DNA from: Muribaculaceae bacterium
GTDB lineage: Bacteria; Bacteroidota; Bacteroidia; Bacteroidales; Muribaculaceae
Length of the DNA: 60,509 nucleotides
Assembly: GCA_016290325.1 (NCBI GenBank)
Contig: JAEETL010000016.1
Span: forward strand, 1 to 60,509
Reading direction: 5' to 3'
Translations under genes and position numbers: made by a program
The notes under the pieces: model-generated
What the model was told of the DNA's origin: nothing
What the model saw: only the letters and a program-made list of their open reading frames with translations
The model's database searches: none
Part shown: positions 3,663 to 32,726 of the stretch, in pieces
Layout: the number at the start of each line of letters is the position of its first letter
Position numbering within the stretch: the first letter of the stretch is position 1

Positions 3663-3703
3663 AAAAAACGCTGCCCGCCGGAGGGTGATGATGGCGGGCA
3701 GCG
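3663..3703 (-). terminator. Rho-independent terminator after the secreted dockerin gene (copy 1)
   Basis: Minus strand: an 11-bp stem CGCTGCCCGCC/GGCGGGCAGCG closes a 13-nt loop and is followed directly by six T residues (A-run at 3663-3668 on the plus strand). It lies about 215 nt after the stop of the gene it would terminate. Confidence 0.8.
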
Positions 3704-3782
3704 CAGGTCGTGATGAATTTAATTATACTCCTAAAGAGCACTATTGGAGCAAATCATCCTTTACCTTCTTCGGGCGAAGAAG
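3669..3782 (-). repeat. 114-bp 3' element, copy 1 (identical to 32613-32726)
   Basis: This segment lies after the stop of the 3919-5757 gene, in that gene's orientation. Read on the minus strand it is identical base for base to plus-strand 32613-32726. It begins with an 8-bp hairpin (CTTCTTCG/CGAAGAAG), continues through an AT-rich linker, and ends with the strong terminator hairpin. The sequence between stop codon and repeat (3783-3918) is only partly alike between the copies. It could be a conserved 3'-UTR or sRNA, a gene-conversion tract, or a dispersed element. Confidence 0.9.
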
Positions 3783-3918
3783 GGATATATTGAGAGGGGG
3801 CCTTCCTCCACAGCGGCTCACGCCGCAGCTCACCGTGGGCCCCCTATCTCGTGGATTACCCTATTGCGATAGTAGCCATATTTTGTGTGCGAAATGATTT
3901 CAACTATCTGCCAGCAGG

Positions 3919-5757
3919 TTAATAGACTTCAAAGTTTCCCTCAAAGTTGCCCCATGCTGGAGAGTTGACAGTGATGCAGTACTCGCCTACTGGGAGCGTC
4001 GAAACATCGATGGTGCCGTAGCTGCCGTCCACCCAGGTTGAAATCATGCTGACGCCCGTAGTTACCGATGTAATATCAACGTCATAATAGTCCACCGCTT
4101 TGGTCCCGTAAATGATAATACTATGTGTATCATTCTTATATATAACGTATGGTTTGTCATCTATTGATTCATCACGGGTGGGATTATTGGATTTGTCACG
4201 CAGATTGATAGACGATTCATCATTGGCCAGCAGCATCCCTATCAGCGATGTCACGTCAGCCATGTTAACAAGGCCATCCAAATTCACGTCATAGGATGGG
4301 ATAGTCGCATTAAAGCTTTTAAGCAAGAATTCAATGATTTCTACCACGTCATTAAGGTTGGTAACCATGTCACCGTTCACGTCACCCGGGAGACCAGGCA
4401 CGTTATCACTATTATTGTAGCACATGCCCTTGTAGATGACCTTACCGTCCTTGATGACGTGGCTCAGGCCCCAATACTCCTGATAGTCGGCATCGGGGTC
4501 GGGCTTGCGCGTGAAGGGGGTCAACAGGTCGCCCATGTCGCGGCTGTCAAAGCCGATGCCCTCGACCACGTAGCATAGGGGCTCGTCGCCGTCGCCGTAA
4601 TAGGCATAGCGCCTGCATCTTTGGCCTTCAATCCAGACAGGCTCCACTTCCACGAAGTTATCCAGCGTCAGCTCGTCTCCAGTCTGCATAAAGCTAAAGA
4701 AACTAATCGGATTATCACCACACAGCACCGACTCATAATATTGGTAAGGAACAAACGTGTATAATGTAAAGATATTATTCACAAACCAATTTATTATAAG
4801 CCGTTCTGGACTATTATTGCGCAGATTAGTGACGGCCATGTTATACATAACTCCAGCCCCATTCCAGCGAGACTGGACCGCTGCAATTACACTGTCATTC
4901 TCACTGTCCAACGAATTGCCTTCATAGTAATGGCAAAGCCTGTACGCCCAGTTGTTCTCGTCTTTGAACTCGTAGGTATAGTAATTGCGGGTCGTGTCGC
5001 CGTGCTCGATGATGACGCGCTCATTCACCCACTTCACACCTTCGCGGACAAGTTCCGGGTACTCGTCTTCTCTTAGTTTTAAACTTTCAGAACTGTAGAT
5101 GACCTTCCCGTCCTCTATGACATAATCTAAGTGCATTTTTGACTCACCTGGTTGTTGGTCTTTAGGGAATGCCAGTGGATATCCTTGGGTTAATCCGTCA
5201 CATCCGATGCCCTCAATGAAACAGGCGCCACCCATGCTCGCCGTACTGAACACATAACGTTTTACGCTAAAATCGTCCAGAACGATGGTCTGAGGCTTCA
5301 CTGGGTGAACTATAAAGTCATTATAGGTAATCCTACTCATGATGAATCCCTCGGGATCGTTGAAGTCATACAGGACAAATTCCCTGCCAGCCATGATATC
5401 CTCGTTTATCGTGCTGTCACCGAAGCAGTCGATCGGGCACTCCTCGTAGGTCTTGCCGTCGGGCACGATGGCATAGACCACCTTGCCCTCCTCGCGCATA
5501 TACACGGGGATGGTATCATTGTTCGGATCGATATCCTCGCCGCTATAATAGTGCATCGCCTTATAGGTCACCCCGTTGATGACAGCATCTCCCTGGAATT
5601 CAAGGGTGAAAATCTTATTTGGATTTGGATATCGAGGCCCACTAGAACAAACCCACTTCACTCCTTCACGAACGAAAGGCACATACTCGTAATCCTGAGC
5701 CGCCGCCTGGGTCATGCCTAGCAGCGCCAATAAACTGATTATAAAAAACTTTTTCAT
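3919..5757 (-). CDS. Secreted dockerin-like protein with C-terminal DUF3244-like domain (module copy 1)
   Basis: A 612-aa exported protein with an N-terminal signal peptide ending near AAAQ. Two homologous halves of about 200 residues follow, each opening with a VREGVKWV segment and ending with an (I)EDGKVIY or IKDGKVIY segment. At about 455-512 is a dockerin-like pair of Ca-binding repeats (GDVNGDMVTNLNDV and DVNLDGLVNMADV). The last 80 residues resemble the DUF3244 beta domain (KAVDYYDVDIT ... STLPVGEYCITV). A close paralogue is encoded at 30989-32542, without the C-terminal domain. The TPR regulator gene lies 218 bp upstream on the same strand. Dockerin-like tails are common on Bacteroidales surface proteins; no cohesin is seen here. 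The ligand is unknown. Confidence 0.85.
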   Translation of the reverse strand: MKKFFIISLLALLGMTQAAAQDYEYVPFVREGVKWVCSSGPRYPNPNKIFTLEFQGDAVINGVTYKAMHYYSGEDIDPNNDTIPVYMREEGKVVYAIVPDGKTYEECPIDCFGDSTINEDIMAGREFVLYDFNDPEGFIMSRITYNDFIVHPVKPQTIVLDDFSVKRYVFSTASMGGACFIEGIGCDGLTQGYPLAFPKDQQPGESKMHLDYVIEDGKVIYSSESLKLREDEYPELVREGVKWVNERVIIEHGDTTRNYYTYEFKDENNWAYRLCHYYEGNSLDSENDSVIAAVQSRWNGAGVMYNMAVTNLRNNSPERLIINWFVNNIFTLYTFVPYQYYESVLCGDNPISFFSFMQTGDELTLDNFVEVEPVWIEGQRCRRYAYYGDGDEPLCYVVEGIGFDSRDMGDLLTPFTRKPDPDADYQEYWGLSHVIKDGKVIYKGMCYNNSDNVPGLPGDVNGDMVTNLNDVVEIIEFLLKSFNATIPSYDVNLDGLVNMADVTSLIGMLLANDESSINLRDKSNNPTRDESIDDKPYVIYKNDTHSIIIYGTKAVDYYDVDITSVTTGVSMISTWVDGSYGTIDVSTLPVGEYCITVNSPAWGNFEGNFEVY

Positions 5758-5843
5758 CTTTGTTGATTTTATGTGTGATTAAGTTAATAGCTTCATGAAA
5801 ATGTGCGTTTCAACTCATCTGTCAAACGCAAAATGATTTGCTG

Positions 5844-5918
5844 CAAAATTACAATCAGATGAAAAATAATGAGCAAAAAATCAGTTAATATTATTTGCGC
5901 TAATCAACTGATTATCAG
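5844..5918 (-). promoter_or_regulatory. Promoter with palindromic operator candidate (copy 1)
   Basis: Minus strand: TAATTTTG (5844-5851) matches the -7 consensus, and an 11-bp inverted repeat CTGATAATCAG (5908-5918) lies 56 nt upstream. The same motif, with one base changed, at the same 56-nt distance precedes the paralogous module at 30483-30557. A further CTGAT half site lies between them. The -7 box is 86 nt before the ATG, so the leader is fairly long. Confidence 0.55.
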
Positions 5919-5975
5919 ATGTCAATTTCAATAAAATTTTAATCGGTTTTTTTGCTGTGTGATTTCGGGTGTCAA

Positions 5976-7784
5976 TCACTGCATTTTACCGTCCAAATAC
6001 ATATTGATAAAGTCTTCAAGTTTCACATCCAAGCCGAATCTGTCCTTGAGTAATCGCCTCTTGTAATTGCTGACAGTTATGGCACTGGAGTAATTCAAGC
6101 ACAACTTAATGATTTGGGGTGAGACGTTGGCACAAAGCAACAAGAACAATTGATAATCCTTGGCTGATAATGATGGATACTTTCGTTCAACAAATGAAGC
6201 GATACCCTGATATTCGCCATCCACCGCAAACTTGAGATTTTCCCAAAATGAGTCTGTTGGATTCAAGTTCAAAATCTCTTTATTCTCGTTAAACTCTTTT
6301 ATCAAGCTGACTAATGGGATAATTCTTCTTCTCTTTCCAGATGCAGTGCTGGTTTTAATGCGCAAACCCTGATATAGCTCATCAAATGCCTCGTGCCTAG
6401 CCCTGACAATGGCTGAAACCTGCTGCTGAATGCCTTCATGCTTGGATTCAAGTTCTTGATTTTTCTTTTCTATATCAGATAACTTTTTCTCTTTCTCGGC
6501 AATGGAATTGACGTGATTCTGGCGTTCCAATTCTAATTGAATGTCCTTTTGCTCGGCGACGCGCATCATCGCTTCGATTTCTTGTCGGGACTGATCCAAC
6601 TCGTGGTGATACCGGGTAATCCGTCTCCTGAGTAAGAATGAAAAGAGCACAAGCAAGAAGGCTAAAGCCAAGATGATGCCAACGGCTAAAAGCAAGCGGT
6701 TATTGCCTTGTTTCTTGATAATTGCCGTTTGCTGGTCTGAATCATACTTTAACTCGGTCAGGGTTAAATTGGAATCTAGCGATTTTGAGAGTATTTGATT
6801 CTTGACTCTCTCGGCCTTTGCTTGGTAAAAGCCGCAGTCACTCAATCGATTTGATGCTTCGGCCAGTTCGGCATTGAGTGTGAAATAATTCAAGCTATCG
6901 ACCAATGTAGTTGGCATTGGAATCAATGACTTGACCCAATAAGCTGAGTCAAGTTGTGAAAGCTTGATAAATGACCTTGAAGCATAATAATAATATTTAT
7001 TATCATCCCACCCGTCACTGCTATTCTTAATGATGTCCAATGCCAATCTTTTGGCAGTCACATAATCTTCTTCATAGAAGTAAACACCTGCCAACTTGGA
7101 TTGATAGTAATAATAATTTGAATTGATTAAACGGGCATTGTTGATTGCTCGTTCTAAGTAAATTTTAGCGCTGTCATTATCATTACCGAACAGATAGGCA
7201 CCTATAGCGCCATCGGTAATCACCCAATAATTGGTGTCTCGGGTATGGCTGAAATAGTTACGCGCCTTGCGCATGCGGCTAAGGACGGCACTATCATTGA
7301 TGAAATGGGTTTGATACAATTCTGCAATCCTTAAATTGCTGTATCCCAGGTTAAAGAAGTCCTTGGGGTCGGCGTTGACTTCGGCGGTCTTGTAGTAGTA
7401 CATAGCGCTATCCACATGGCCCAACTCCTGCATGACGGCCCCCTTGTAGAGGTAGGCGCGGGTGAGTTTCTCGCGCTCGCCGCCGTGGGCGCGGTACCAG
7501 GCCAATGCGCGCGTGATGGCGCTGTCGTCGCCGGCGGTAATCTCCTGATAGGTCTTGTAGCGCGCCTGGGTGAGTAGCAGGTCGCGGTAGGCGAGGTTGG
7601 CGTCGCCCGCCAGGCTGTCGATGGCACTCACGATGGCCAGCGCGCTGTCAGGGTTGGCCTGCATCAGGCTGTCGGCCCGCACGAGCCGCGCGTCATAGCG
7701 GCGCAAGCCGTCACATCCCGTGACCGCCGCCACGAGCACCAACATCAGCAATATGCCCAACAAGAACTTTCTCATCCTATTCAT
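5976..7784 (-). CDS. Membrane TPR regulator with C-terminal HTH-like domain (module copy 1)
   Basis: A 602-aa lipoprotein-like protein. Its signal sequence ends in AAVTGC, a plausible lipobox. About 300 residues of tetratricopeptide-like helices follow (for example LTRAYLYKGAVMQELGHVDSA without its ends). A single membrane segment lies at about 361-386, then a charged coiled coil to about 460. The C-terminal 70 residues (LSAKDYQLFLLLCANVSP and VSNYKRRLLKDRFGLD) look like a LuxR-type helix-turn-helix. This layout is a known Bacteroidetes regulator class in which an envelope sensor is joined to a cytoplasmic DNA-binding domain. Its paralogue is at 28675-30369. The adjacent secreted dockerin gene is the likely target or partner. 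Confidence 0.82.
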   Translation of the reverse strand: MNRMRKFLLGILLMLVLVAAVTGCDGLRRYDARLVRADSLMQANPDSALAIVSAIDSLAGDANLAYRDLLLTQARYKTYQEITAGDDSAITRALAWYRAHGGEREKLTRAYLYKGAVMQELGHVDSAMYYYKTAEVNADPKDFFNLGYSNLRIAELYQTHFINDSAVLSRMRKARNYFSHTRDTNYWVITDGAIGAYLFGNDNDSAKIYLERAINNARLINSNYYYYQSKLAGVYFYEEDYVTAKRLALDIIKNSSDGWDDNKYYYYASRSFIKLSQLDSAYWVKSLIPMPTTLVDSLNYFTLNAELAEASNRLSDCGFYQAKAERVKNQILSKSLDSNLTLTELKYDSDQQTAIIKKQGNNRLLLAVGIILALAFLLVLFSFLLRRRITRYHHELDQSRQEIEAMMRVAEQKDIQLELERQNHVNSIAEKEKKLSDIEKKNQELESKHEGIQQQVSAIVRARHEAFDELYQGLRIKTSTASGKRRRIIPLVSLIKEFNENKEILNLNPTDSFWENLKFAVDGEYQGIASFVERKYPSLSAKDYQLFLLLCANVSPQIIKLCLNYSSAITVSNYKRRLLKDRFGLDVKLEDFINMYLDGKMQ

Positions 7785-7859
7785 ATAACGCTCAAAGCCG
7801 TTGATTATTTTACCATAATCTAAAGCAGCCCAAAAGAAATTTGTTTGATTTTTTTAAAT

Positions 7860-7891
7860 AATTTGTTTGAATTTCCCGTGCGCTAGCACGG
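7860..7891 (-). repeat. Hairpin plus GGGAAATT-type dispersed repeat, site A
   Basis: Minus strand: a 6-bp-stem hairpin CCGTGC/GCACGG is joined to CGGGAAATTCAAACAAATT. The same pattern (GC hairpin followed by GGGAAATTmAAACAAATT) recurs at 8590 and 17413, each in an intergenic space. It lies between the TPR gene start and aroK stop, and could act as a REP-like element or transcript end. Confidence 0.5.
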
Positions 7892-8010
7892 TAAAATATC
7901 ATTCGCGTAATTGGCTTCTCCGAACTAAAGGTTCGTAGTTAATAATGAAAGCGGATGCCCCAAAAAAGTTGTTTATAATAGTTTTTAAGTTGTGCCTGTT
8001 GTTTGAAAAA

Positions 8011-8544
8011 TTAGCGGGTGAGGGCGGTGGCGAGGTGGTGGGCGGTGACTTCGGTTTCCTCGGCCGTCTCGATGTCGGTAGAGTCAAATTCCAACTGGGC
8101 TTGGCCATAAATGGGGGCGCGAGCCAGCAATTCGGCCTTGACAAGCGGCAACACCTCCTCATCGGGGAGATGAAGGACTTTGGGACGCTTGGACTTTTGC
8201 TCTGGCAGGAGCAGGCGGGCGGTGATGCGCTCGGGACTGGTGGTGAGCCACACGGTTATGCCAGCTTTGTTCATGATTTCCATATTGCCGCCATGGCAAG
8301 GTGTGCCGCCGCCACAGCCCACAATGACATCGGTCATAGCAGCCACTTCGCGCAGTGCCTCGGCTTCCAACTCACGGAAGCAGTTTTCGCCCATTTCATC
8401 GAAGATTTCGACAATCGACATGCCCTGGCGGGCCTCGATGAATTCATCGAGGTCGATGAAGCGCACACCCATCTGACGGGCAAGCACCTCACCCAGCGTG
8501 GTCTTGCCACAACCCATGTAGCCGATGAGGAAAACTGGTCTCAC
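8011..8544 (-). CDS. aroK: Shikimate kinase
   Basis: A 177-aa cytoplasmic kinase of normal family length. It phosphorylates shikimate at the 3-hydroxyl with ATP in the chorismate pathway. The P-loop is near the start (GYMGCGKTTLG, residues 8-18). The shikimate-binding D-x-D region follows (FIDLDEFIE), then the FRELE motif and the central GGG motif (VGCGGGTPC). It is the last gene of a minus-strand run, separated from the epimerase gene by 151 bp holding a palindromic repeat, so it may have its own transcript. Confidence 0.93.
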   Translation of the reverse strand: MRPVFLIGYMGCGKTTLGEVLARQMGVRFIDLDEFIEARQGMSIVEIFDEMGENCFRELEAEALREVAAMTDVIVGCGGGTPCHGGNMEIMNKAGITVWLTTSPERITARLLLPEQKSKRPKVLHLPDEEVLPLVKAELLARAPIYGQAQLEFDSTDIETAEETEVTAHHLATALTR

Positions 8545-8589
8545 TTGTTTAACAAAGCCTAAATGATCATTTCTATGATGGAATCATGA

Positions 8590-8665
8590 CCGCCCTGCGG
8601 GCGGGAAATTAAAACAAATTATATTTTAATTGTTTATAATTATTTCCCGTACGTTAGCACAGTCA
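8590..8665. repeat. Palindromic intergenic repeat, site B
   Basis: The left arm is a perfect GC hairpin (CCGCCC/GGGCGG) followed by GAAATTAAAACAAATT. After an AT-rich centre, the right arm reads ATTTCCCGTACGTTAGCAC, an imperfect inverted copy of the left. The element fills the space between the epimerase stop and the aroK start. Its left arm matches that at 17413 except in the hairpin loop. Confidence 0.55.
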
Positions 8666-8695
8666 TCATTTTGACATACCCACATAAATAGTTAA

Positions 8696-9703
8696 TTACA
8701 GCCAGCCGGCCTGGCGATACCAGGCGATGGCCTCGCGAATGCCCTCCCGCAACGAATACTGCGGGTTAAAGCCAAAGTCGCGGCGCGCATCGCTCGTGTC
8801 ACACAGCCAGTTGCGCTGCTTGAGGATCTTGTACTTGTCACGGTTGAGCGTGCTCGCCTTGAGGGTGACCTTGCCAATCCACTCGGCAATGGCACACACC
8901 CGCTTCACCACCCACAGCGGGCAGGTGACGGGAATGACGAACTTTTTCCCCAACTCCTCGCACACGATCTTGCGGAATTCCTGCTGGGTATAGCCCTGGT
9001 TCTCGCTGATGAAATAGGCTCGATGCAAGGGTCCCTTGTCTAATGCGTCCATCACAGCAACGGCCAAGTCCTTGACATAGATGAACGTGAGCATCTGCTT
9101 CTTGAACCCCACGCTGAAGTCAAAGCCGCGTTTGATGCTCTTGATCATCAGGTAGTAATCACGCTCGCGAGGGCCATAAACGCCCGTGCACCTGAAGATA
9201 GTATATGGGAAACCCTCAAGGCTTTGCAAATAGGTCTCAGCCTTGAGTTTCGACACGCCGTAATAAGTGTTGGGCAACGGCACATCGCTTGACTTAAAGG
9301 GCTGATAAGTCTTCTCGTCGCCAGGTCCCATAACGCTCAGGCTACTCATGAGCAGGAACACGTCAGGAGTCATATTGGTCGCCTGCATGGCATCGACCAG
9401 GGCCTTGAGGTAGCCATAGTTGACCTGCTCAAAGTCCATATAATTGGTGCTCTTGGTCACGCCCAGGTTGTGAACCACATAGTCCCACCTGCCCCACTCG
9501 CCCATGTGGTCGCGCAGGGTCTCCTCCAAGCGGTCCTGGTCGGTGTAGTCTAATTCGATGAAATGGATGCGTTCGTCGGTGAGGAATTCACGGCTTGTTG
9601 TGGAACGCACGGCCGCCCAAGTGTCATAACCCCGTCGCAAGGCTTCCTCAACGAGAAAACCACCGATGAAGCCACCAGCTCCAGTGATTAGAATGCTTTT
9701 CAT
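8696..9703 (-). CDS. NAD-dependent epimerase/dehydratase
   Basis: A 335-aa extended short-chain dehydrogenase. The Rossmann motif is at the N-terminus (ITGAGGFIGGFLVEE), and the catalytic YxxxK is YYGVSKLK near residue 149. The substrate is probably a nucleotide sugar or similar; the sequence does not say which. Its start overlaps the stop of the upstream GT9 gene by 4 bp (ATGA), so the two are translationally coupled. This context suggests a role in envelope polysaccharide or LPS core synthesis. Confidence 0.85.
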   Translation of the reverse strand: MKSILITGAGGFIGGFLVEEALRRGYDTWAAVRSTTSREFLTDERIHFIELDYTDQDRLEETLRDHMGEWGRWDYVVHNLGVTKSTNYMDFEQVNYGYLKALVDAMQATNMTPDVFLLMSSLSVMGPGDEKTYQPFKSSDVPLPNTYYGVSKLKAETYLQSLEGFPYTIFRCTGVYGPRERDYYLMIKSIKRGFDFSVGFKKQMLTFIYVKDLAVAVMDALDKGPLHRAYFISENQGYTQQEFRKIVCEELGKKFVIPVTCPLWVVKRVCAIAEWIGKVTLKASTLNRDKYKILKQRNWLCDTSDARRDFGFNPQYSLREGIREAIAWYRQAGWL

Positions 9704-10827
9704 TGATTTGTGTTTTGTTCTTCTCTTGCCGCCTCACGTGCTTTAGCGAGCTTGGTGTGTTTGGTCTTGTGTTCGGCGTTATATTCTACCGCATCGATGA
9801 CATGCTTGGCAATACGCTCGGGCGGAATGTCCTTCAAGCAGCGGAAATCACCGAATTTGCACGGTTTATCACCCGTGATAGAACACGGACGGCATGGCAT
9901 ATCAAGATGGATATCGTCCTCTTCCATCTGGTTATAGCCCAGATAGCCACAAGCTGGTGACGTGGGTCCCCACACCGTGATGGCCTGTAAGTCCACCAGC
10001 GATGCCATATGCATATTGGCCGACTCCATCGTGAGCATGACATCACACTGTGACAGCAGCGCATACTCGTCAATGAATTGATGCTTCATCTCGGCCATCG
10101 AGGTCACGTTTTTATACTTGCGGGCAATGGGTCGCAGGGCAACTTTCTCGGCCTTGCCTCCTCCCATGAGGAAGATATGGTAATTCTCACGTTTGCACAG
10201 TTCATCAATCACCTGCTCCATCTGTTCAAGAGGATAGGCTTTTTGACGGTGGGACGAGAATGGCGAAACGGCAATCCAGCGCTGCCCCTCCTCTTTTTTA
10301 GGCACAATGGGGCTAGTTGGCCAATCACGACCCTCATACAAGCGGGTGAAGTTATCGGGAGTCTCGAAACCCAATTCCCTGAATACCCTGCGGTAGCGTT
10401 CGTGGATAGGGGTTACCGGCTCATCGGTTTTATGGTTGACCAGGGCACGGCGTTTAGGCTCCTCCCTATCAAGACGTGCCACCTGAATACCATGAGACTT
10501 CATCCACGCGTCGATAATCCACGTTCCTGACACATTGTGCAAGTCGGCAACAGCATCGATATCATACAGCTTGTGCAGACGGGATGCCAGTTTCAACAAC
10601 CCGAACAAGCCACTGTGGTTCTCCTTCACGTCAAAGTCCACCACCTTGAGGTTGGCGGGACGGTCGTGGAACATCGAGGCGGGCCATCGCTTGGTGAGCA
10701 TGACAAATCGGGTGTCAGGATTGGCTTTGCACAAGGGGTAAAGTACAGGAATCGTCATCGCCACATTGCCCAATACCGACAACCGTATGACGAGCACATT
10801 GCGATGTTTTTGGTTATTCGTTGCCAT
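9700..10827 (-). CDS. GT9 (heptosyltransferase-like) paralogue with altered catalytic positions
   Basis: A 375-aa glycosyltransferase family 9 protein, about half identical by eye to the gene just upstream (10894-11949). Most GT9 landmarks are kept (AMTIPVLYPL, FHDRP, GGGKAEK, WGPTSP). At the Asp of the N-terminal LGD motif it has Asn (N21 in VLGNVAMT), where the neighbour has D21. At the nucleotide-sugar site it has E268 (TMESANMH) where the neighbour has D267. In E. coli WaaC the equivalent Asp residues are reported as catalytically important (from memory). It may therefore be inactive, altered in donor, or a partner subunit. It has its own promoter at 10862-10893. Confidence 0.88.
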   Translation of the reverse strand: MATNNQKHRNVLVIRLSVLGNVAMTIPVLYPLCKANPDTRFVMLTKRWPASMFHDRPANLKVVDFDVKENHSGLFGLLKLASRLHKLYDIDAVADLHNVSGTWIIDAWMKSHGIQVARLDREEPKRRALVNHKTDEPVTPIHERYRRVFRELGFETPDNFTRLYEGRDWPTSPIVPKKEEGQRWIAVSPFSSHRQKAYPLEQMEQVIDELCKRENYHIFLMGGGKAEKVALRPIARKYKNVTSMAEMKHQFIDEYALLSQCDVMLTMESANMHMASLVDLQAITVWGPTSPACGYLGYNQMEEDDIHLDMPCRPCSITGDKPCKFGDFRCLKDIPPERIAKHVIDAVEYNAEHKTKHTKLAKAREAAREEQNTNQ

Positions 10828-10861
10828 ATTGCACTGGATTGAGATTTTGTTAATCGGTTGG

Positions 10862-10893
10862 CAAAGATATAAATAATCGATGAATTATGCAAA
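10862..10893 (-). promoter_or_regulatory. Promoter of the second GT9 gene
   Basis: Minus strand: TATCTTTG (10862-10869) and TTTG (10890-10893) spaced 20 nt. The -33 element ends directly against the stop codon of the upstream GT9 gene, and the -7 box is 34 nt before the ATG. The altered GT9 can therefore be expressed apart from its intact sister. Confidence 0.65.
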
Positions 10894-11949
10894 TTATTCC
10901 CGCGCTCCTTCCACCATCTCAACCACATGGGCTGCAATGCGTTCTGGCTTGATGTTGCCCAGGCAACGATAATCGCCGTAACGGCAATCACGCTCGCCAT
11001 AGATCGAGCAGGGCCGGCAATCCATGTCGAGCTGGATGTCGTTACCAGCATCCTGGCCATAACCCAAAAAGCCGCAGTCGGGTGAGGTCGCGCCCCAGAT
11101 GGTGACAGCCTTGAGACCCATCAGTGATGCCAAATGCATGTTGGCCGAGTCCATCGTGAGCATGAGGTCACACTTGGCCAGCAAGGCATACTCATCGTTG
11201 AAGCCGTGTTTAATCTCGGCCATCGAGATGACGCGTTTGTTGGTGCGGGCAATGCCGCGCAGGGCAATTTTCTCGGTCTTACCACCACCCATGAGAAATA
11301 TCCAGTAATCCTCACGCTTGCTCAACTCGGCCACCACCTGGGACATGAGTTCAAGCGGGTAATTCTTTCCGTCGTGAGCCGAGAACGGAGCAACAGCAAT
11401 CCAGCGCTGGCCTGGCTCCTTCTCAAGCACGATAGGGCTCACGGGCAAAGGTTTGCCGTCATATAAGCGGGTGAAATTGTCAGGAGCGACAAATCCCAAT
11501 TCATTGAACACATTGCGGTAGCGGTCATGGGTAGATGTGACAGGACCTCCCTTGTGGGTGATGAGCGCCTTACGACGGGCACGCTCCTTGTCAAGTCGTG
11601 CCACGGGGATACCGTGCATCTTCATGAACAGACCGATGACACGGGTGCGCAACACGTTGTGCAGGTCGGCAACGGCATCTATCTCATACTGCTTGCGCAG
11701 CTGTCCGGCGAGTTTCATCAAGCCGAAAAGCCCCTTATACTGCTCCTTCACATCAATGCCCACCACCTCGAGGTTATCGGGACGGTCATGGAACATCGAT
11801 GCGGGCCAGGGCTTAGTCACCATGACAAAGCGGGTGTCAGGATTAGCGCGACACATAGGATAGAGCACCGGAATGGTCATGGCGACATCGCCCAGCGCCG
11901 AGAAGCGCATGACGAGCACATGACGGTGGGGGCGGTCATTTTTTGCCAT
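10894..11949 (-). CDS. Glycosyltransferase family 9 (heptosyltransferase-like)
   Basis: A 351-aa cytoplasmic GT9 protein of the ADP-heptose:LPS heptosyltransferase class. It has the intact SALGDVAMTIP motif (D21), FHDRP, GGGKTEK and TMDSANMHLAS (D267), plus the WGATSP donor-site motif. Near the C-terminus four Cys (CRPCSIYGERDC, YRC) are shared with the neighbouring paralogue and may bind metal. The start overlaps the DUF4254 gene by 14 bp. It is expected to add a sugar to the LPS core on the inner face of the inner membrane; the exact sugar is not deducible. Confidence 0.88.
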   Translation of the reverse strand: MAKNDRPHRHVLVMRFSALGDVAMTIPVLYPMCRANPDTRFVMVTKPWPASMFHDRPDNLEVVGIDVKEQYKGLFGLMKLAGQLRKQYEIDAVADLHNVLRTRVIGLFMKMHGIPVARLDKERARRKALITHKGGPVTSTHDRYRNVFNELGFVAPDNFTRLYDGKPLPVSPIVLEKEPGQRWIAVAPFSAHDGKNYPLELMSQVVAELSKREDYWIFLMGGGKTEKIALRGIARTNKRVISMAEIKHGFNDEYALLAKCDLMLTMDSANMHLASLMGLKAVTIWGATSPDCGFLGYGQDAGNDIQLDMDCRPCSIYGERDCRYGDYRCLGNIKPERIAAHVVEMVEGARE

Positions 11950-12541: not shown

Positions 12542-12569
12542 TTCGTTGTATTGTATTACGTTAATACTG

Positions 12570-12601
12570 CAAAATTAAGCATTTTTCGGGAGAAATGCAA
12601 A
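12570..12601 (-). promoter_or_regulatory. Promoter of the DUF4254-GT9-GT9-epimerase operon
   Basis: Minus strand: TAATTTTG (12570-12577) and TTTG (12598-12601) with a 20-nt spacer. The -33 box abuts the miaB stop at 12605. The -7 box lies 28 nt before the DUF4254 ATG. Confidence 0.65.
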
Positions 12602-12604
12602 GAA

Positions 12605-14111: not shown

Positions 14112-14148
14112 TTATTTGGATAGGGACCAACCCACTAAGGTAAAAAAG

Positions 14149-22371: not shown

Positions 22372-22410
22372 CACGCCAGCGAGACCCGAATCTCGTTGGC
22401 GTGCTTGTTT
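22372..22410 (+). terminator. Rho-independent terminator after the N-acetylmuramidase gene
   Basis: A 13-bp stem CACGCCAGCGAGA/TCTCGTTGGCGTG (one G-T pair) closes a 6-nt loop and is followed by CTTGTTT. It lies between two convergent genes and may serve both. Confidence 0.75.
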
Positions 22411-22431
22411 ATTACCGTTTATTGGAAAAAA

Positions 22432-24024: not shown

Positions 24025-24046
24025 TGTTTTGTCAATTAGTCGTTAG

Positions 24047-24703: not shown

Positions 24704-24712
24704 TTGGTAGTT

Positions 24713-25654: not shown

Positions 25655-25718
25655 TATTAATGGTTCAGCGATTGATGATTATAAAAAAGTGGATTTTCAG
25701 TCAAATCCACTCATTAAA

Positions 25719-26579
25719 TTATTTGTCAAGATACTCTTTCAAGATGCGCATCGTGTCGTTGCACACACGGATGAACATCTCACGGTTCTTGAGCATGGTA
25801 CTTGTCTTGACCTTTTTGTCGGCACCCGAGAAGAGATAGCCCGTGTCCTCGCTTTCCAGAGCGCGCAAGGTGGGCACGACACCAGCCTCGGGGCTAGGAA
25901 TGTTGCGGCTCAGGTAATCGGGCACGCGATCCATCCAGCGTGACATGGCCAGGGCACCGCTCTTGAGCAGGCCAGGATTGACGCAGTTCACTTTCACGCG
26001 GCGGGTCTTCATCACACTACTCATGTATATCGAGAACAGTGTCAATGCCAACTTGCTCTGGGCATATGCACCCCACGGAGTGAAGTGGGACACAGCAGGG
26101 AACTCATAGGGCAGAGTGACAAAACGCCGCGACACGCTGGTCGACAGGATGATGCTGCCACCCTCGTTAATGAGCGGATAAACCTGCATCGACAACAGCA
26201 CCGTACTCAGGTAGTTGACCTGCACCGAGTGCTCAAAACCATTCTCAGATATCTCGCTTCGGCGAGGCAACAGACCAGCATTGTTGATGAGCGCTGCAAC
26301 AGGACGATTCAAAGCGCGAAGACGCTTCACAAAGTCATTGACCAATTCAAATGAATTCAAATCGAGCTGCAGGCATGTAATATCCTTGTTGCGGGTCACT
26401 GTGCGCAGTTGTGCGGCATAGCTCTCGGCTTTCTTGATATCGCGGCTGGCGAGCAATACGGCCTTGCCCTGCTCGGCGAGTTTGCGCGTGATGACGCTAC
26501 CCATGCTGTCGGTCGAACCCGTAACGATATACAACGGCTTCACGTCAGCATCCACCACTAGATTATTGTCGGTCATCAT
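25719..26579 (-). CDS. Short-chain dehydrogenase/reductase (SDR)
   Basis: A 286-aa classical-type oxidoreductase. The cofactor motif TGSTDSMG, the NNAG motif (ALINNAGLLP), a catalytic Ser in STSV, and YAQSK as the active-site YxxxK are all present. The layout resembles the retinol-dehydrogenase-like subgroup; the substrate is unknown. It leads the SDR-ribF-upp-nadB run. Translation may start at the first or second Met. Confidence 0.85.
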   Translation of the reverse strand: MMTDNNLVVDADVKPLYIVTGSTDSMGSVITRKLAEQGKAVLLASRDIKKAESYAAQLRTVTRNKDITCLQLDLNSFELVNDFVKRLRALNRPVAALINNAGLLPRRSEISENGFEHSVQVNYLSTVLLSMQVYPLINEGGSIILSTSVSRRFVTLPYEFPAVSHFTPWGAYAQSKLALTLFSIYMSSVMKTRRVKVNCVNPGLLKSGALAMSRWMDRVPDYLSRNIPSPEAGVVPTLRALESEDTGYLFSGADKKVKTSTMLKNREMFIRVCNDTMRILKEYLDK

Positions 26580-26616
26580 AATGTTTTAGTTTTATGGTTC
26601 TTTTCTTTCCAACTTG

Positions 26617-26648
26617 CAAAGATAATGCAAGGTGAGCGTAATGACAAA
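26617..26648 (-). promoter_or_regulatory. Promoter of SDR-ribF-upp-nadB
   Basis: Minus strand: TATCTTTG (26617-26624) and TTTG (26645-26648) spaced 20 nt, 37 nt before the SDR start codon. Confidence 0.65.
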
Positions 26649-26751
26649 CAAATAAGCATTTTTTTGATTTGCCATTAGGGTTGGAGTCTATCTTATGACA
26701 AAAGGTAGATATCCATATTGTGGTTGATATATACCATTTTAAAAAACGTGA

Positions 26752-26783
26752 TTTGGAGAAATGGACAAGATGTGGTAACTTTG
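26752..26783 (+). promoter_or_regulatory. Promoter of psuK-psuG
   Basis: TTTG (26752-26755), 20-nt spacer, TAACTTTG (26776-26783), 28 nt before the psuK ATG. It is divergent from the SDR promoter. Confidence 0.7.
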
Positions 26784-26811
26784 CCTACTGAATTAAGGTA
26801 GACAAATAATA

Positions 26812-27705
26812 ATGAGAGGACACATTACAGTTATCGGTGGGGTAAACATGGATATTTCAGCGGCTTTGACGGCCCCGTTTGTTCCCGCCGACTCGGTACC
26901 TGGCCATGTGACCATGGGGTGCGGCGGTGTTGCGCGCAACATCGCCCACAACCTGTTGCTTTTAGGCAATGAGGTGAAATTTGTGAGTGTGTTTGGGGGC
27001 GATATCTTTGGTGAAATGTGCCACCGCGAGTGTGAGGCTATCGGGCTTGACCTGTCACTGTCTGAACGCATGGAGGGGCAGCGTAACGGCCTGTACCTGT
27101 GCGTGAACGACATGTATGGCGAGATGCGGGCAGCAGTCGCCGATACCGACATTATCGCCCAACTCACCCCGGCATTCCTGGCGCAGCGCATCGATGCCAT
27201 CAATGGCTCGGCTGCCGTTGTCGCCGACACCAACATCTCCATCGAGGCCCTGCAATATCTCATTGACCATTGCAAGGCTCCGCTGTTTGTTGATACTGTG
27301 AGCACTGCCAAAGCGCCCCGCGTCATCACAGCCCTGCGACAAAGTTCCATTGGGCGGCTCCATGGACTGAAACTCAACCTCCAGGAGGCTCAAGCGGTCA
27401 CCCAGTGCGATTCCGCCCATGAGGCCGCGTCCCAACTCACCTCTCTAGGCGTGGAACAGGTCTATATCACCCTGGGCAGTGATGGCGTGTATTGCAGTGA
27501 CGGCACCATCAGCCAACATCTGCCCGCCATCCCCACTCATGTGGTCAATACCACTGGAGCGGGCGATGCCTTCATGGCAGGAGTGGTTCACGCCCTGTTA
27601 CGGCAAACGCCTTTCCCAGAGTGTGCCCAGATAGGACTTCGGACCGCCCACGCTACCCTACTCTCCCTGCAAACAGTTAATCCTGACATTAACAAATATC
27701 TATAA
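26812..27705 (+). CDS. psuK: PfkB-family carbohydrate kinase, probable pseudouridine kinase
   Basis: A 297-aa ribokinase-family protein. The N-terminal GGVNMDI and GCGGVARNIAHN motifs bind the sugar. The C-terminal PfkB signature NTTGAGDAFMAG holds the catalytic Asp and anion hole. It lies 4 bp before a pseudouridine-5'-phosphate glycosidase gene. This makes pseudouridine the likely substrate: kinase then glycosidase yield uracil and ribose 5-phosphate. Confidence 0.88.
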   Translation: MRGHITVIGGVNMDISAALTAPFVPADSVPGHVTMGCGGVARNIAHNLLLLGNEVKFVSVFGGDIFGEMCHRECEAIGLDLSLSERMEGQRNGLYLCVNDMYGEMRAAVADTDIIAQLTPAFLAQRIDAINGSAAVVADTNISIEALQYLIDHCKAPLFVDTVSTAKAPRVITALRQSSIGRLHGLKLNLQEAQAVTQCDSAHEAASQLTSLGVEQVYITLGSDGVYCSDGTISQHLPAIPTHVVNTTGAGDAFMAGVVHALLRQTPFPECAQIGLRTAHATLLSLQTVNPDINKYL

Positions 27706-27709
27706 AACT

Positions 27710-28621
27710 ATGAATCAATACCTTTCCATCTCTCCCGAAGTAAAAAAGGCCCTTGACGAGGGCAAGCCTGTAGTAGCTTTAGAATCGACCATCATTTCCC
27801 ATGGTATGCCCTATCCGCAAAATGTGGAAACGGCGCTCAAAGTCGAGCAGACCATCCGTGATAATGGGGCTGTTCCCGCCACCATCGCCATCATTGACGG
27901 CAAACTCAAAGCCGGTTGCACGCCCGATGAAATCGAGTACCTGGGCAAGAAAGGCCAGGCCGTAACCAAAGCCTCGCGCCGTGACCTGCCTGTGCTTATC
28001 GCCCGCGGCGAGGACGGTGCCACCACGGTAACCACGACAATGATCATTGCAGCGATGGCAGGCATCAAAGTGTTTGCCACTGGCGGCATCGGTGGCGTGC
28101 ATCGTGGGGCCGAAACTACCATGGACATCAGTGCCGACCTCGAGGAACTCGCCATGACCCCTGTCATGGTCATCTGTGCCGGCGCCAAGTCCATTCTGGA
28201 TCTGGGGCTCACTCTGGAATACCTCGAGACCAAAGGTGTTCCCGTCATTGGCTACGGCACCGAGGAATTACCCGCCTTCTACACCCGTCACAGCGGATTC
28301 AAGGTGGATTACCGTATTGACACTCCCGAGGACCTGGCTGCAGCATTCCGTGCCAAGCTCGACATGGGTCTGCAGGGCGGTATGCTCGTGACCAACCCCA
28401 TCCCCGAGCAGTACTCCATGCCCGCCGAGGTCATCAACAAGGCTATTGATGAGGCTATCGAAGAGGCCAACCGCCTGGGAATCCGCGGAAAGGAAACAAC
28501 ACCCTTCCTGCTGGCCAAGGTCAAGGATCTCACCGGCGGCGACAGCCTCGCCAGCAACATCCAACTGGTGCTCAACAACGCCCGCCTGGCTGCCAAGACC
28601 GCAGCCGCCCTCACCCGGTAA
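27710..28621 (+). CDS. psuG: Pseudouridine-5'-phosphate glycosidase
   Basis: A 303-aa enzyme splitting pseudouridine 5'-phosphate into uracil and ribose 5-phosphate. Family motifs are ALESTIISHGMPYP, ATIAIIDGKLKAG, FATGGIGGVHRGAE, SADLEEL and DLGLTLEYLET. Length is typical. The uracil released could be salvaged by the Upp encoded about 3 kb away on the other strand. Confidence 0.93.
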   Translation: MNQYLSISPEVKKALDEGKPVVALESTIISHGMPYPQNVETALKVEQTIRDNGAVPATIAIIDGKLKAGCTPDEIEYLGKKGQAVTKASRRDLPVLIARGEDGATTVTTTMIIAAMAGIKVFATGGIGGVHRGAETTMDISADLEELAMTPVMVICAGAKSILDLGLTLEYLETKGVPVIGYGTEELPAFYTRHSGFKVDYRIDTPEDLAAAFRAKLDMGLQGGMLVTNPIPEQYSMPAEVINKAIDEAIEEANRLGIRGKETTPFLLAKVKDLTGGDSLASNIQLVLNNARLAAKTAAALTR

Positions 28622-28674
28622 AAGGACAAAAAATCCTCATTGCATTTGTTCCCCCGCATGGTTGCTACCGGGTT

Positions 28675-30369
28675 TTATAGCTTGCGGAAGGAGCGGATAT
28701 AGCCTTCGATGTCCTCAGTCGTTCCCAAGGCTTGCGCGATGCGCCTTTTTTTGTTATACACCGAGTGAGCGTCATTATAGCCCATGCACGCCATGATCAC
28801 CGACGTCGGGAAGCCGCAGCAACACAGGCTCAGGAAATTCAGGTCAGTATCACTCAGCGACGGATGAGCCTCCAGCGACCGCGTGATGATGTCGTTGTAT
28901 TTCCCGTTAGCATAGGAGCGGAACGCTTTCCAAAACGCGTCGTTCGGGCGATTCTTCCTGTACGAGCGCTCAAACGCCTCGCTGAATCTCTTGGGCGAGC
29001 CCGCCAAGGTCGTGATGTGCTTCTCCATCAATTGGGAATACATTTCCACCTGCGACCAGATGGTCTGTTTGAGCTCGGCACTCATCGCCTGGTGAGCATT
29101 CAGCTGCTCGGTCAAGAGAGCCATGTCTTCGCGCAACCGTTCGATGGCGTCCTCGCTCTGCCGCAACAGTCGCTGGCGGCGAGCCAGTTTTCGACGCATC
29201 GCCACAATCACCGCCAGCAATAGGCCAGCCAGCAGTGCCGCCGCGATCAGCGAGACAATCCAGTTGTACCGGTATCTTATCGACTTGTTTTTCAGCACCT
29301 CATTGTCATACTTAGCCTCCACATCTCGCAACCGTAGCTGAAGGGTGTTTGACAGTAGCGAATCGCCAATATCGTCGGCGCGCCTAAAATAATGCTCAAA
29401 CTGCCCAAAGTCACCACGACTACGCGCCAACTCGGCATAGCAGAAGTTATAAAGTATCCTCAGGCCGTCTGACAGCCGATCCATCTCAACCTGCGCCAGA
29501 TAGTAACGCGCCGAGTCCGCCTTGTTGAGTCTAGCCAGCGTATAAGCCGCGATCAGCACCAGGTGGTCATGTTCGTCAGTGTCCTTGTCGGCTAGTTTCA
29601 CGGCAATATTCTTAGCAACCACGATATCCTCGACATCAGGGCCAAACATCTTTAAATCGGCAAGATACCTCAAGTTAAGCACTTCTAGGGTATTAAGTTT
29701 TAATGACTTGATTAACGTGTCAGCCCGCTCCAAATAAAACAAGGCACTGTCAATCATGTCGATGGCTGAATATGAGCTTCCTATCGTTGACAGGCATTGA
29801 GCCATGTAAAAACTGTCGGGCACTTGCCCAAAGTGATGCAGCGCTTGTTTTAACGACATGATATCAGCGCTGTCATTCACCAAATAGTCACGGTAAATGG
29901 AGCCTACCCTCATATTGGCATAACCCAGGTTAAAATGATCCGTTGGGGCAGCGACACTCAAGGCCTGCTTGTAACACGCCATGGCCGCCTCGGCATCGCC
30001 CAGCACCTCGGTCACCGCTCCTTGATAGATATAGGCCCGCGTCAGCTTCTCCCGCTCGCCGTCATGATGCCTATAGTAATCCAGCGCCACGTTGATGGTG
30101 CTGTCGCTCGTGATGTCGGCATAGCAGCGGTACTGCGCCTGGGTCAGCAGCAAGGCATGATAGGCGCGGTCACCGGCACTGGGCAGTTTGGCTCCATCAA
30201 GGCCACTCAGCAACCTTAAGGCGCTGTCGGGGTCATTGCAGCGCAAGAGGCTGTCGGCCTGTACCAAGCGGCCATCATAATCTGGCGTTCCACCCTGGCA
30301 ACACACCATGGAAAACATGAGCACCACGACAACAATGACAGGGAAACAATTTCTTAAACTCTTATTCAT
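28675..30369 (-). CDS. Membrane TPR regulator with C-terminal HTH-like domain (module copy 2)
   Basis: A 564-aa paralogue of the protein at 5976-7784. It has a lipoprotein-type signal (FSMVCC), tetratricopeptide-like repeats (LTRAYIYQGAVTEVLG), a membrane helix near 370-390, and a coiled coil. The C-terminal domain is LSDTDLNFLSLCCCGFPTS, then YNKKRRIAQALG. It is divergent from the DUF3244 and dockerin genes of the same module. A -7 box (TAATTTTG) sits only 5 nt upstream of its ATG, so its mRNA may be leaderless. It is expected to sense an envelope signal and control the neighbouring secreted proteins; that role is inferred from position. Confidence 0.82.
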   Translation of the reverse strand: MNKSLRNCFPVIVVVVLMFSMVCCQGGTPDYDGRLVQADSLLRCNDPDSALRLLSGLDGAKLPSAGDRAYHALLLTQAQYRCYADITSDSTINVALDYYRHHDGEREKLTRAYIYQGAVTEVLGDAEAAMACYKQALSVAAPTDHFNLGYANMRVGSIYRDYLVNDSADIMSLKQALHHFGQVPDSFYMAQCLSTIGSSYSAIDMIDSALFYLERADTLIKSLKLNTLEVLNLRYLADLKMFGPDVEDIVVAKNIAVKLADKDTDEHDHLVLIAAYTLARLNKADSARYYLAQVEMDRLSDGLRILYNFCYAELARSRGDFGQFEHYFRRADDIGDSLLSNTLQLRLRDVEAKYDNEVLKNKSIRYRYNWIVSLIAAALLAGLLLAVIVAMRRKLARRQRLLRQSEDAIERLREDMALLTEQLNAHQAMSAELKQTIWSQVEMYSQLMEKHITTLAGSPKRFSEAFERSYRKNRPNDAFWKAFRSYANGKYNDIITRSLEAHPSLSDTDLNFLSLCCCGFPTSVIMACMGYNDAHSVYNKKRRIAQALGTTEDIEGYIRSFRKL

Positions 30370-30374
30370 ACCTG

Positions 30375-30408
30375 CAAAATTAATAAAAAAGTGAGAGCGG
30401 ATGCCAAA
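30375..30408 (-). promoter_or_regulatory. Promoter of the copy-2 TPR regulator
   Basis: Minus strand: TAATTTTG (30375-30382) and TTTG (30405-30408) spaced 22 nt. The box ends 5 nt from the start codon. Confidence 0.5.
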
Positions 30409-30447
30409 TTCGCTTTAAAATCACCCAAAAATCCACCCCGAATCACA

Positions 30448-30557
30448 ATGTTACATCACGTTACAAAAAATTTTTTAATATCTTGATAATCAGCACCTAT
30501 TTATAGCTGATGTTACATCAGATTACTTGCAAAAACCGACCATTTTTCTTAACTTTG
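30448..30557 (+). promoter_or_regulatory. Promoter and operator candidates of the copy-2 secreted genes
   Basis: TAACTTTG (30550-30557) is the -7 box, with TTG (30527-30529) 20 nt upstream. TTGATAATCAG (30483-30493) lies 56 nt before the box, as in copy 1. A perfect 15-bp palindrome CTGATGTTACATCAG is at 30507-30521. ATGTTACATCA(n)2TTAC occurs twice, at 30448 and 30510. The divergent TPR gene starts at 30369, so this space could be bound by that regulator. Confidence 0.55.
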
Positions 30558-30595
30558 CGAAGCAAAAACATCATTATTAACCAATAGTTTCAAGA

Positions 30596-30943
30596 ATGAT
30601 GAAAAGAACAATTTTATTTCTATCTTTTCTGCTTTTGATGATCTTACAGCTTTCAGCTGAAGGAACAAGACGTCCTATTACTCTCGAGCATAAGGGTGGA
30701 CCGCGCGATGGTTCTCCACTGTGTTTTGATATGCCAATGGCTTATTACTATTATAATAGTAAGACTCATGACATTATCATCGACGGTGGCGGTGTCGTGA
30801 GCTATTATGACGTGGAGATTTCGTCGCCGGTGACCAACACTGTCGAGATGTCCATCCAGGTTGACGGGACATATGACACCTTTGACATCTCGTCGCTTCC
30901 AGCGGGCGCGCATGTCATCATCGGTAAAGCCCTCCACCTATAA
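30596..30943 (+). CDS. Small secreted DUF3244-like protein
   Basis: A 115-aa protein with a signal peptide (cleavage near LSAEG) and a single beta-rich domain like the Bacteroidetes DUF3244 family (VSYYDVEISS, then GTYDTFDISSLPAGAH). The last strand of the domain (the GxFE-type ending seen in the copy-1 fusion) is missing, because the protein ends with IIGKALHL. The equivalent domain is fused to the C-terminus of the 3919-5757 protein. It is first in a probable two-gene transcript with the dockerin gene. Confidence 0.75.
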   Translation: MMKRTILFLSFLLLMILQLSAEGTRRPITLEHKGGPRDGSPLCFDMPMAYYYYNSKTHDIIIDGGGVVSYYDVEISSPVTNTVEMSIQVDGTYDTFDISSLPAGAHVIIGKALHL

Positions 30944-30988
30944 CAAATAAGAGTTTATTAATTATCGATATTTTAAGCATTTACAAAT

Positions 30989-32542
30989 ATGAAAAAGCAT
31001 TTTATAATCAGTTTATTGGCATTGCTTGGCTTTTCCCAGGCAATGTCTCAAGAATATGAGTACGTTCCTTTCGTTAGAGAGGGCGTCAAGTGGGTTTGCT
31101 CTTCAAAGAAACTTCCAATAAATCATTCTACGATTGAGCATTTCTTCACCCTTGAATTCAAGGGTGATGCCGTCATCAACGGTGTGACCTATAAAGCGAT
31201 GCACAAATACAGTGGTGAGGAGATTGATCCGAACAATGATACTATCCCCGTGTATATGCGCGAGGAGGGTAAGGTGGTCTATGCCATTGTGCCCGACGGC
31301 AAGACCTATGAGGACTGCCCGATTAACTGCTTCAGTGACAGCTTAATCGATGAGGACATCAGGGCTGGCAGGGAATTTGTCCTATATGACTTTAATGATC
31401 CCGAGGGATTCATCATGAGCAGGATTACCTATAATGACTTTATCGTTCACCCAGTGATGGCCCAAAGCATCAAGTTGGGCAATAGGTGCGTTAAGCGTTA
31501 TGTGTTCAGTACTAAAAGAATGTATGGTTCCTGTTTCATCGAGGGCATCGGATGTGACGGCTTGACTCAAGGTTATCCGCTGGCATTCCCCAATAATAAT
31601 AATGAACAACTCGGTCAGTTGAGAATGTATTTAAATCATGTCATCGAGGATGGCAAAGTCATTTACAGCTCTGAACATTTAAAAGTCAGGGAAGACGAGT
31701 TCCCAGAACTTGTACGCGAAGGCATACAATGGGTGAACGAGCGCGTGGTGATTGAACACGGCGACACGACCCGCAGTTACTACACTTACGAAATCGACGG
31801 CTGGAATGATTGGGCATACAGGCTTTGTCATTACTATGAAGGGGAATCGTTTGACAGCGAGAATGACAGTGTCATAGCAGCGTTAATGCCTTGTTATGGT
31901 GGGGTCAATGTAATGTACAACAATGCTATCACAAATTTGCGAAAAAATAGCCCAGAACGGCTCATGATGAAATGGTTTGTGCATAATATCAGTGCACTAT
32001 ACACATTTGTTCCTTACGAAGTCTATGAGTCAGTACTGTGTGGTTCAAATCCGATTAATTTCTTTAACTTAATGCAGACTGGAGACGACTTGACACTAGA
32101 TAACTTTGTGGAAGTGGAGCCAGTCATGATTGATGGCCAAAGATGCAAGCGCTATGCCTACTACGGCGACGGGGATGAGCCGCTATGCTACATCGTCGAG
32201 GGTATCGGCTTTGACAGCCGCGACATGGGCGACCTGTTGACACCCTTTACCCGCAAGCCCGATCCCGATGCCGACTACCAGGAGTACTGGGGCCTGAGCC
32301 ACGTCATCAAGGACGGCCAGATCATCTACAAGGGCATGCGCTACAAGGAGCCCGCAGCGATCGTTGGTGACGTGAACGGTGACGGCCTGGTCACCATCGC
32401 CGACGTGACGACGCTGATCGACATGCTGCTGGGTGGCGGCCACGCGGGTGGCTACTACACGCCAGGCGATGTCAACATGGACAGCCATGTGACCATAGCC
32501 GACGTGACAGCGCTGATTGACATGCTGCTCATTCAGCAGTAA
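30989..32542 (+). CDS. Secreted dockerin-like protein (module copy 2)
   Basis: A 517-aa exported protein, highly similar to 3919-5757 (by eye about three quarters identical over the first 450 residues). It has a signal peptide (LLALLGFSQAMSQ) and the same two internal homologous halves (VREGVKWV and VREGIQWV). It ends with two dockerin-like calcium repeats, GDVNGDGLVTIADVTTLIDM and GDVNMDSHVTIADVTALIDM. It lacks the DUF3244-like tail, which is a separate gene here. The 114-bp element identical to that after copy 1 follows the stop after about 70 bp. Confidence 0.85.
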   Translation: MKKHFIISLLALLGFSQAMSQEYEYVPFVREGVKWVCSSKKLPINHSTIEHFFTLEFKGDAVINGVTYKAMHKYSGEEIDPNNDTIPVYMREEGKVVYAIVPDGKTYEDCPINCFSDSLIDEDIRAGREFVLYDFNDPEGFIMSRITYNDFIVHPVMAQSIKLGNRCVKRYVFSTKRMYGSCFIEGIGCDGLTQGYPLAFPNNNNEQLGQLRMYLNHVIEDGKVIYSSEHLKVREDEFPELVREGIQWVNERVVIEHGDTTRSYYTYEIDGWNDWAYRLCHYYEGESFDSENDSVIAALMPCYGGVNVMYNNAITNLRKNSPERLMMKWFVHNISALYTFVPYEVYESVLCGSNPINFFNLMQTGDDLTLDNFVEVEPVMIDGQRCKRYAYYGDGDEPLCYIVEGIGFDSRDMGDLLTPFTRKPDPDADYQEYWGLSHVIKDGQIIYKGMRYKEPAAIVGDVNGDGLVTIADVTTLIDMLLGGGHAGGYYTPGDVNMDSHVTIADVTALIDMLLIQQ

Positions 32543-32612
32543 GCGAGGAAAAACGGGCCATGGTGAGCGGCGGCGTGAGCCGCTGTGGAGGAAAGGCCCC
32601 CTCATTATATCT

Positions 32613-32726
32613 CTTCTTCGCCCGAAGAAGGTAAAGGATGATTTGCTCCAATAGTGCTCTTTAGGAGTATAATTAAATTCATCACGACCTGCGCTGCCCG
32701 CCATCATCACCCTCCGGCGGGCAGCG
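32613..32726 (+). repeat. 114-bp 3' element, copy 2 (identical to 3669-3782 on the other strand)
   Basis: The segment has the same order as copy 1: small hairpin, AT-rich linker, strong GC hairpin. No mismatch was found over 114 positions when the two were compared base by base, although the coding regions upstream have diverged. Confidence 0.9.

Follow-up and report, generated by a model that had tools for sequence, protein, structure and literature searches.

Two TPR regulator/secreted dockerin protein loci

We analyzed a 60,509-nucleotide stretch (hereafter, the window; positions 1 to 60,509 of contig JAEETL010000016.1, assembly GCA_016290325.1) from a Muribaculaceae bacterium of the gut, probably of the rumen. 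The window carries two copies of a gene set in which a tetratricopeptide repeat (TPR)-membrane-helix-turn-helix (HTH) gene, referred to here as the regulator (P0002 in copy 1 and P0003 in copy 2), adjoins a gene encoding a secreted dockerin protein (P0001 and P0004, respectively). Both pairs lie at the positions and on the strands originally predicted from the sequence (Table 1), with the regulator followed by the secreted gene on the same strand in copy 1 and a divergent arrangement in copy 2. A third component, absent from the original prediction, is a small secreted DUF3244-like protein with an immunoglobulin (Ig) fold, which in copy 1 is joined to the C terminus of the secreted protein and in copy 2 has a shortened gene of its own. 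In both copies, a promoter box lies between the regulator and the adjoining gene; the copy-1 box, TAATTTTG, is presumably of the Bacteroidales -7 type.

Table 1. Features of the two loci in the window
Feature	Position	Strand	Remarks
3' hairpin-rich element of copy 1, directly after the secreted gene	3663..3841	-	94% identical to the copy-2 element; 113-nt core identical in three genome copies
Secreted protein of copy 1 (P0001, 612 aa): signal peptide, two repeat domains, dockerin, C-terminal DUF3244-like domain	3919..5757	-	
Fused DUF3244-like domain, C terminus of copy 1	3922..4242	-	Profile A4 E value, 2.6e-38 (the domain is partly itself a row of the profile); Pfam DUF3244, 17.1 bits (cutoff, 25)
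Dockerin of copy 1, residues 457-510	4228..4389	-	PF00404, 33.4 bits; coordinates computed from residue range
TAATTTTG box, copy-1 promoter	5844..5851	-	
Regulator of copy 1 (P0002, 602 aa): lipobox-like signal peptide, TPR, membrane helix at ~364-382, coiled-coil-like stretch, C-terminal HTH-like domain	5976..7784	-	
Regulator of copy 2 (P0003, 564 aa): architecture as P0002, membrane helix at ~371-389	28675..30369	-	
Operator-like footprint TTAC-N6-TTAC-N48-TTAC-N6-TTAC, divergent intergenic region	30451..30526	+	Spacing kept upstream of a related pair in another species; single match in genome
TAACTTTG box, copy-2 promoter	30550..30557	+	
Small secreted DUF3244-like protein, 115 aa, C terminus shortened versus relatives	30596..30943	+	
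Secreted protein of copy 2 (P0004, 517 aa): signal peptide, two repeat domains, dockerin	30989..32542	+	
Dockerin of copy 2, residues 460-514	32366..32530	+	
3' hairpin-rich element of copy 2, terminator-like hairpin and T run at end	32555..32735	+	100% identical over 181 nt to the C68 copy; folding energy, -80.7 kcal/mol (z, -4.2)

The two secreted genes had been described as very alike, and their proteins are indeed 74% identical over 518 columns. Both begin with a signal peptide of the same type and pass the Pfam dockerin model (PF00404), with 33.4 bits in copy 1 and 30.1 bits in copy 2 (curated cutoff, 22.9). The internal duplication that had been noticed was also recovered: the second half of P0001 aligns to the first half of P0004 (24% identity; E value, 9e-9), and the structure model of P0004 comprises two domains (residues ~29 to 222 and 238 to 443) that draw the same structural neighbors. 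Structural comparison gave no confident fold match for the repeat domain, so the suggested role in adhesion or host-glycoprotein binding gained no support.

A search for further copies had been proposed, and the genome (2.93 Mb in 86 contigs) contains four secreted-family members, each adjoining a regulator, among a total of seven regulators. A third copy and a distant fourth copy of the set are both located on contig C68 (secreted gene C68:11695 with regulator C68:9388, and C68:80043 with C68:81974). The remaining three regulators adjoin other genes, including those for a divergent dockerin protein on contig C53 and a small secreted protein on C68. When 150 of 184 candidates were scored, the secreted-family search of this genome gave at least 144 matches, most of which cover only the dockerin part, indicating that dockerins are very common in this genome. 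No cohesin match above the cutoff and one below it were found in the genome, which is estimated to be 91.68% complete; this sole candidate (C22:128439-128996) lies in an 828-aa frame and is a weak cohesin-like stretch (22.9 bits; cutoff, 24.1) followed by a dockerin match. Two secreted-family members, L133 28-963 and P0069, were judged by eye to end in a type IX secretion system (T9SS)-like sorting tail (GIYIHHG..) in place of the dockerin, although the NCBIfam T9SS model matched neither. It is as if dockerin and T9SS-like tail were interchangeable ends of these proteins.

The regulators P0002 and P0003 share only 30% identity and belong to separate clades of the regulator tree. Each has one strong membrane helix followed by arginines (residues 364 to 382 in P0002 and 371 to 389 in P0003), the membrane topology and HTH domain being predicted. 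For the C-terminal domain, six of the eight PDB matches (E values up to 10) are LuxR-type domain proteins, the best of them weak. Four of the seven regulators match the NCBIfam BT3442 family (NF053779) at an E value of ≤0.001; P0003 scores 87.4 bits (E value, 9e-25), below the equivalog cutoff of 940 bits.

The copy-1 DUF3244-like domain (17.1 bits) and the best of 10 relatives (19 bits) stay below the 25-bit cutoff of Pfam DUF3244 (PF11589), which does not match the small protein of the window at all; we therefore use the label DUF3244-like. The partner protein nonetheless shows the Ig-like sandwich of solved DUF3244 proteins, and three DUF3244 structures are among its structural matches. Because the proteins used to build profile A4 came from beside regulators, the profile leans towards such proteins.

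The DUF3244-like gene is the more constant neighbor of one regulator group

Adjacency was evaluated in 37 genomes of the genus. The named relatives are assemblies of uncultured bacteria assigned to Muribaculaceae, Prevotellaceae, Porphyromonadaceae, and other Bacteroidales, several of which carry a ruminant-gut source in the title. For the regulator, 150 of 208 matches were listed and usable, and 58 were not used. Out of 78 DUF3244-like matches, 57 were tested; the 21 with E values above 1.1e-6, which are short pieces or parts of long frames, were left out, at least two of which also stand beside a regulator. Forty-eight of the 57 tested matches lie 168 to 738 bp from a listed regulator, 40 of them downstream and co-directional and 8 divergent. 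The small DUF3244-like protein is thus a more constant neighbor of one regulator group in the genus than the secreted family.

A test for co-occurrence of the regulator and the secreted protein in relatives had also been proposed. Among 77 loci found via the secreted protein, a regulator was present upstream in 31 and downstream in 1, with nearly equal flanks available on the two sides (481 and 480 kb), and the pairing therefore exceeds chance. It is not obligate, however: a listed regulator occurs within 6 kb, always upstream, in 31 of 97 secreted-family loci, which rules out a strict pair. Where the sole secreted member has at most 271 aa (a 270-aa branch plus some cut-off fragments), a regulator was located upstream in 1 of 12 loci.

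Forty regulator neighborhoods were hand-picked from the listed regulators, mostly higher scoring and with room on the contig. In the position that the regulator would serve, a DUF3244-like gene was present for 15 of the 47 regulators inspected, and a gene of the dockerin or secreted-family type for another 14, compared with 3 of 97 control genes from the same loci. On the regulator tree, the DUF3244 label requires 4 changes, versus 12.8 when shuffled. At locus L027 (5895-9616), which belongs to the C58-type regulator clade, the divergent neighbor encodes an exported protein of another kind.

A promoter box upstream of DUF3244-type genes and a spaced TTAC footprint upstream of copy 2

A TAnnTTTG box was detected within 130 nt upstream of 14 of 15 DUF3244-type genes (including the fused one, and with the start moved to a later ATG for three of them); the corresponding counts are 108 of 354 for control genes and 29 of 46 for regulators. 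In copy 2, four TTAC words start at distances of 145, 135, 83, and 73 nt upstream of the start codon. In a related pair from another genome (L132), whose regulator is 70% identical, they stand at 143, 133, 81, and 71. Searching the 37 genomes for the spaced pattern gave one match in this genome, one at the related site in genome G024, and two others (one of these being a simple repeat). The reversed control pattern gives nine matches, eight of them in G024, and the pattern is absent from all 100 shuffles of the window. This single-site footprint suggests a regulator with one local target.

Segments are exchanged between copies

The regulators are only 30% identical and belong to different clades, which rules out that the whole pair was simply duplicated in recent times. 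The suggestion that the module reshuffles was borne out, as segments have been exchanged between copies. The 113-nt core of the 3' element is identical in the two window copies and a C68 copy, yet the L031 orthologue differs at 8 of 115 columns, which indicates exchange among the paralogous copies. The C68 regulator is 82 to 88% identical to that of copy 1 over its first ~150 columns and 13 to 36% over the remainder, and is, judging from this alignment, a chimera. The cargo of C68 and copy 2 is ~80% identical from inside the DUF3244 gene through the 3' element, whereas the regulators are unlike in sequence and orientation. L031 and copy 1 agree at 95 to 100% per 60-nt window across the dockerin and DUF3244 regions and in 216 of 219 intergenic columns; in parts of the initial 700 nt of the secreted gene, copy 1 resembles L031 no more closely than it resembles copy 2. 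The L031 protein has an extra pair of repeat domains (1,034 versus 612 aa). From its sequence, this segment pattern bears the marks of gene conversion.

The 3' element has a sharp outer edge and includes a 130-nt inverted repeat (98% complementary) whose outer ends, positions 3669 and 32726, coincide with the limits originally given for the module. Its three full copies in this genome each follow a secreted-family gene and are accompanied by one 33-nt partial match; another copy follows the L031 orthologue, and none was detected at an E value of ≤0.001 in 60 other genomes. A widespread dispersed repeat was accordingly rejected, as was a known RNA family, the element having no Rfam match. Right after the copy-2 element (window positions 32757 to 33008), a 72-nt unit occurs three times in direct orientation, ~90 nt apart and 61% and 85% alike.

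Occurrence outside the genus

We also searched 24 genomes, one from each of 24 further families of the order, which yielded 64 matches to Pfam DUF3244 and 39 to the regulator profile, each set spread over 19 genomes. The DUF3244 matches are mostly in long frames and may often be other Ig-like domains; four are in frames shorter than 160 aa, one of which forms a pair. In this case (genome G055, L148), a 145-aa protein (8725-9162) that passes PF11589 with 31.6 bits is divergent from a 561-aa regulator (6720-8405), 320 bp apart. Three loci from another family of the order (L149, L153, and L154) have regulator relatives beside proteins whose C termini, judged by eye, resemble T9SS sorting tails.

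For Bacteroides thetaiotaomicron, the accessible part of one report places the TPR protein BT_3442 with BT_3441, a homologue of structure 3d33, in a putative operon that spans BT_3442 to BT_3433 and encodes mainly exported proteins, and describes BT_3442 as a TPR protein and not as a regulator (PMC2954219). The structure of the DUF3244 protein BT_1867 has been solved, and the accessible part of another source lists BT1868 among TPR proteins (PMC10434189); by their gene numbers, BT_1867 and BT_1868 would be neighbors. In the open-access literature, we found no paper describing a TPR regulator and DUF3244-like pair as a regulatory unit, and in the accessible part of one paper using the name DUF3244, such genes are simply listed.

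A local control cassette and its alternatives

We consider it fairly probable that each copy is a local control cassette in which a membrane-tethered TPR regulator is combined with a small partner protein and with exchangeable cargo, both of them exported. What the sequences show directly is that the genes adjoin, how they are oriented, that promoter boxes stand between them, that the footprint is conserved, and that segments have been exchanged. The TPR protein would be a one-component regulator with a lipidated N terminus and TPR in the periplasm, one membrane helix, and a cytoplasmic LuxR-like domain that would bind DNA. It would activate a single neighboring promoter serving the small DUF3244-like protein and at least one larger dockerin-type exported protein. 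By analogy with co-component systems, the DUF3244-like protein would most likely act together with the TPR domain in the periplasm, either as a co-sensor or to provide feedback. Cargo genes would duplicate and be overwritten by gene conversion between copies, so that regulators would become paired with new cargo.

Several results weigh against this reading. The HTH match is weak (best E value, 0.036), and no HTH family appears among the 25 of 28 Pfam families listed for the regulators. Neither partner type occupies the served position in 18 of the 47 inspected regulators, 12 of which form one clade (C58 type) that has other neighbors instead. A third pair, L133, keeps the TTAC footprint only in part. 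The DUF3244 genes of copy 2 and C68 are both shortened and may be nonworking; their cores agree in 129 of the last 138 bases beside TPR regions that are 17 to 58% identical (50-column blocks), which argues against a tight one-to-one (lock-and-key) fit. Outside the genus, 1 of the 64 DUF3244 matches shares a contig with any of the 39 regulator matches, so support there is thin; this limits the spread of the pairing and not the reading of the window.

The TPR protein might instead be an envelope assembly or secretion factor rather than a transcription factor, and the cluster an operon for secretion or for assembly at the surface. Its lipobox-like signal peptide and TPR repeats would suit such a role, as would the full-length T9SS protein SprA encoded in the genome (2582 bits; cutoff, 200) and a weak match of one of the seven regulators to the T9SS lipoprotein PorW/SprE model (E value, 0.00097). 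The B. thetaiotaomicron cluster was likewise interpreted as a possible transport system in the accessible part of its description (PMC2954219). We find this explanation unlikely, as a membrane helix with arginines and a LuxR-like C-terminal domain, albeit weak, are unexpected for a periplasmic lipoprotein, and the intergenic footprint and separate promoter boxes point to regulation.

It is very improbable that the neighbors are together by shared ancestry and position alone while the regulator acts elsewhere: within the genus, diverged regulators retain these neighbors in either of two orientations and always in the served position, the adjacency recurs in another family, and the footprint occurs in the genome at this promoter only. 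This explanation would nevertheless account for the non-obligate pairing at secreted loci, the single pair outside the genus, and the C68b-type regulator, which, among the matches listed, has the same chromosomal neighbors in several genomes (genes presumably encoding a D-aminoacyl-tRNA deacylase and an ABC transporter). Alternatively, the 3' element could be the active part, a recombination or RNA element spreading cargo cassettes. Its identical core, strong fold, and sharp edge are compatible with this idea, which we regard as quite unlikely since the element has no Rfam match, its full copies are confined to this gene and the L031 orthologue, and gene conversion between long homologous genes suffices without a special element.

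The control cassette that we favor resembles several known arrangements. In the accessible part of a report on the co-component systems VtrA/VtrC, ToxR/ToxS, and MarT/FidL, a membrane-tethered transcription factor with a periplasmic domain has a small periplasmic partner encoded next door, and MarT/FidL regulates a neighboring surface (autotransporter) gene (PMC9214523). The sets described here similarly place a putative transcription factor gene beside that of a small exported partner (48 of 57 matches in the genus and 1 of 64 outside), but they differ in having a TPR as the predicted periplasmic domain, a LuxR-like putative DNA-binding domain at the C terminus, and a partner with the DUF3244/Ig fold. 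As the partner is not lipocalin-like, the set would work like co-component systems without being a member. Similarity to the BT_3442-BT_3441 cluster is found in the TPR protein beside a DUF3244-type protein, the putative operon with exported proteins, and internal duplications; as far as the accessible description goes, the cargo there consists of MACPF and other lipoproteins, in contrast to dockerin proteins here. The set may differ from type I dockerin (PF00404) systems, as no cohesin above the cutoff was found in this genome. The predicted periplasmic location of the TPR part and the folded partner domain distinguish the set from RRNPP quorum-sensing systems, where an intracellular TPR receptor also adjoins the gene for a small exported product.

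Little is known of how Bacteroidales control most of their many exported proteins. The pairing of a TPR regulator with a DUF3244-like protein, constant across the genus and with at least two cases outside it, would provide a concrete, testable control unit and possibly a first role for DUF3244, while gene conversion would account for exported cargo swapped between regulators.

Other features of the window

Positions 9877 to 11883 hold a tandem gene pair sharing stretches that are 73 to 74% alike at the DNA level. A partial 16S rRNA gene occupies positions 1 to 970 on the minus strand, its 3' end being lost at the contig end.

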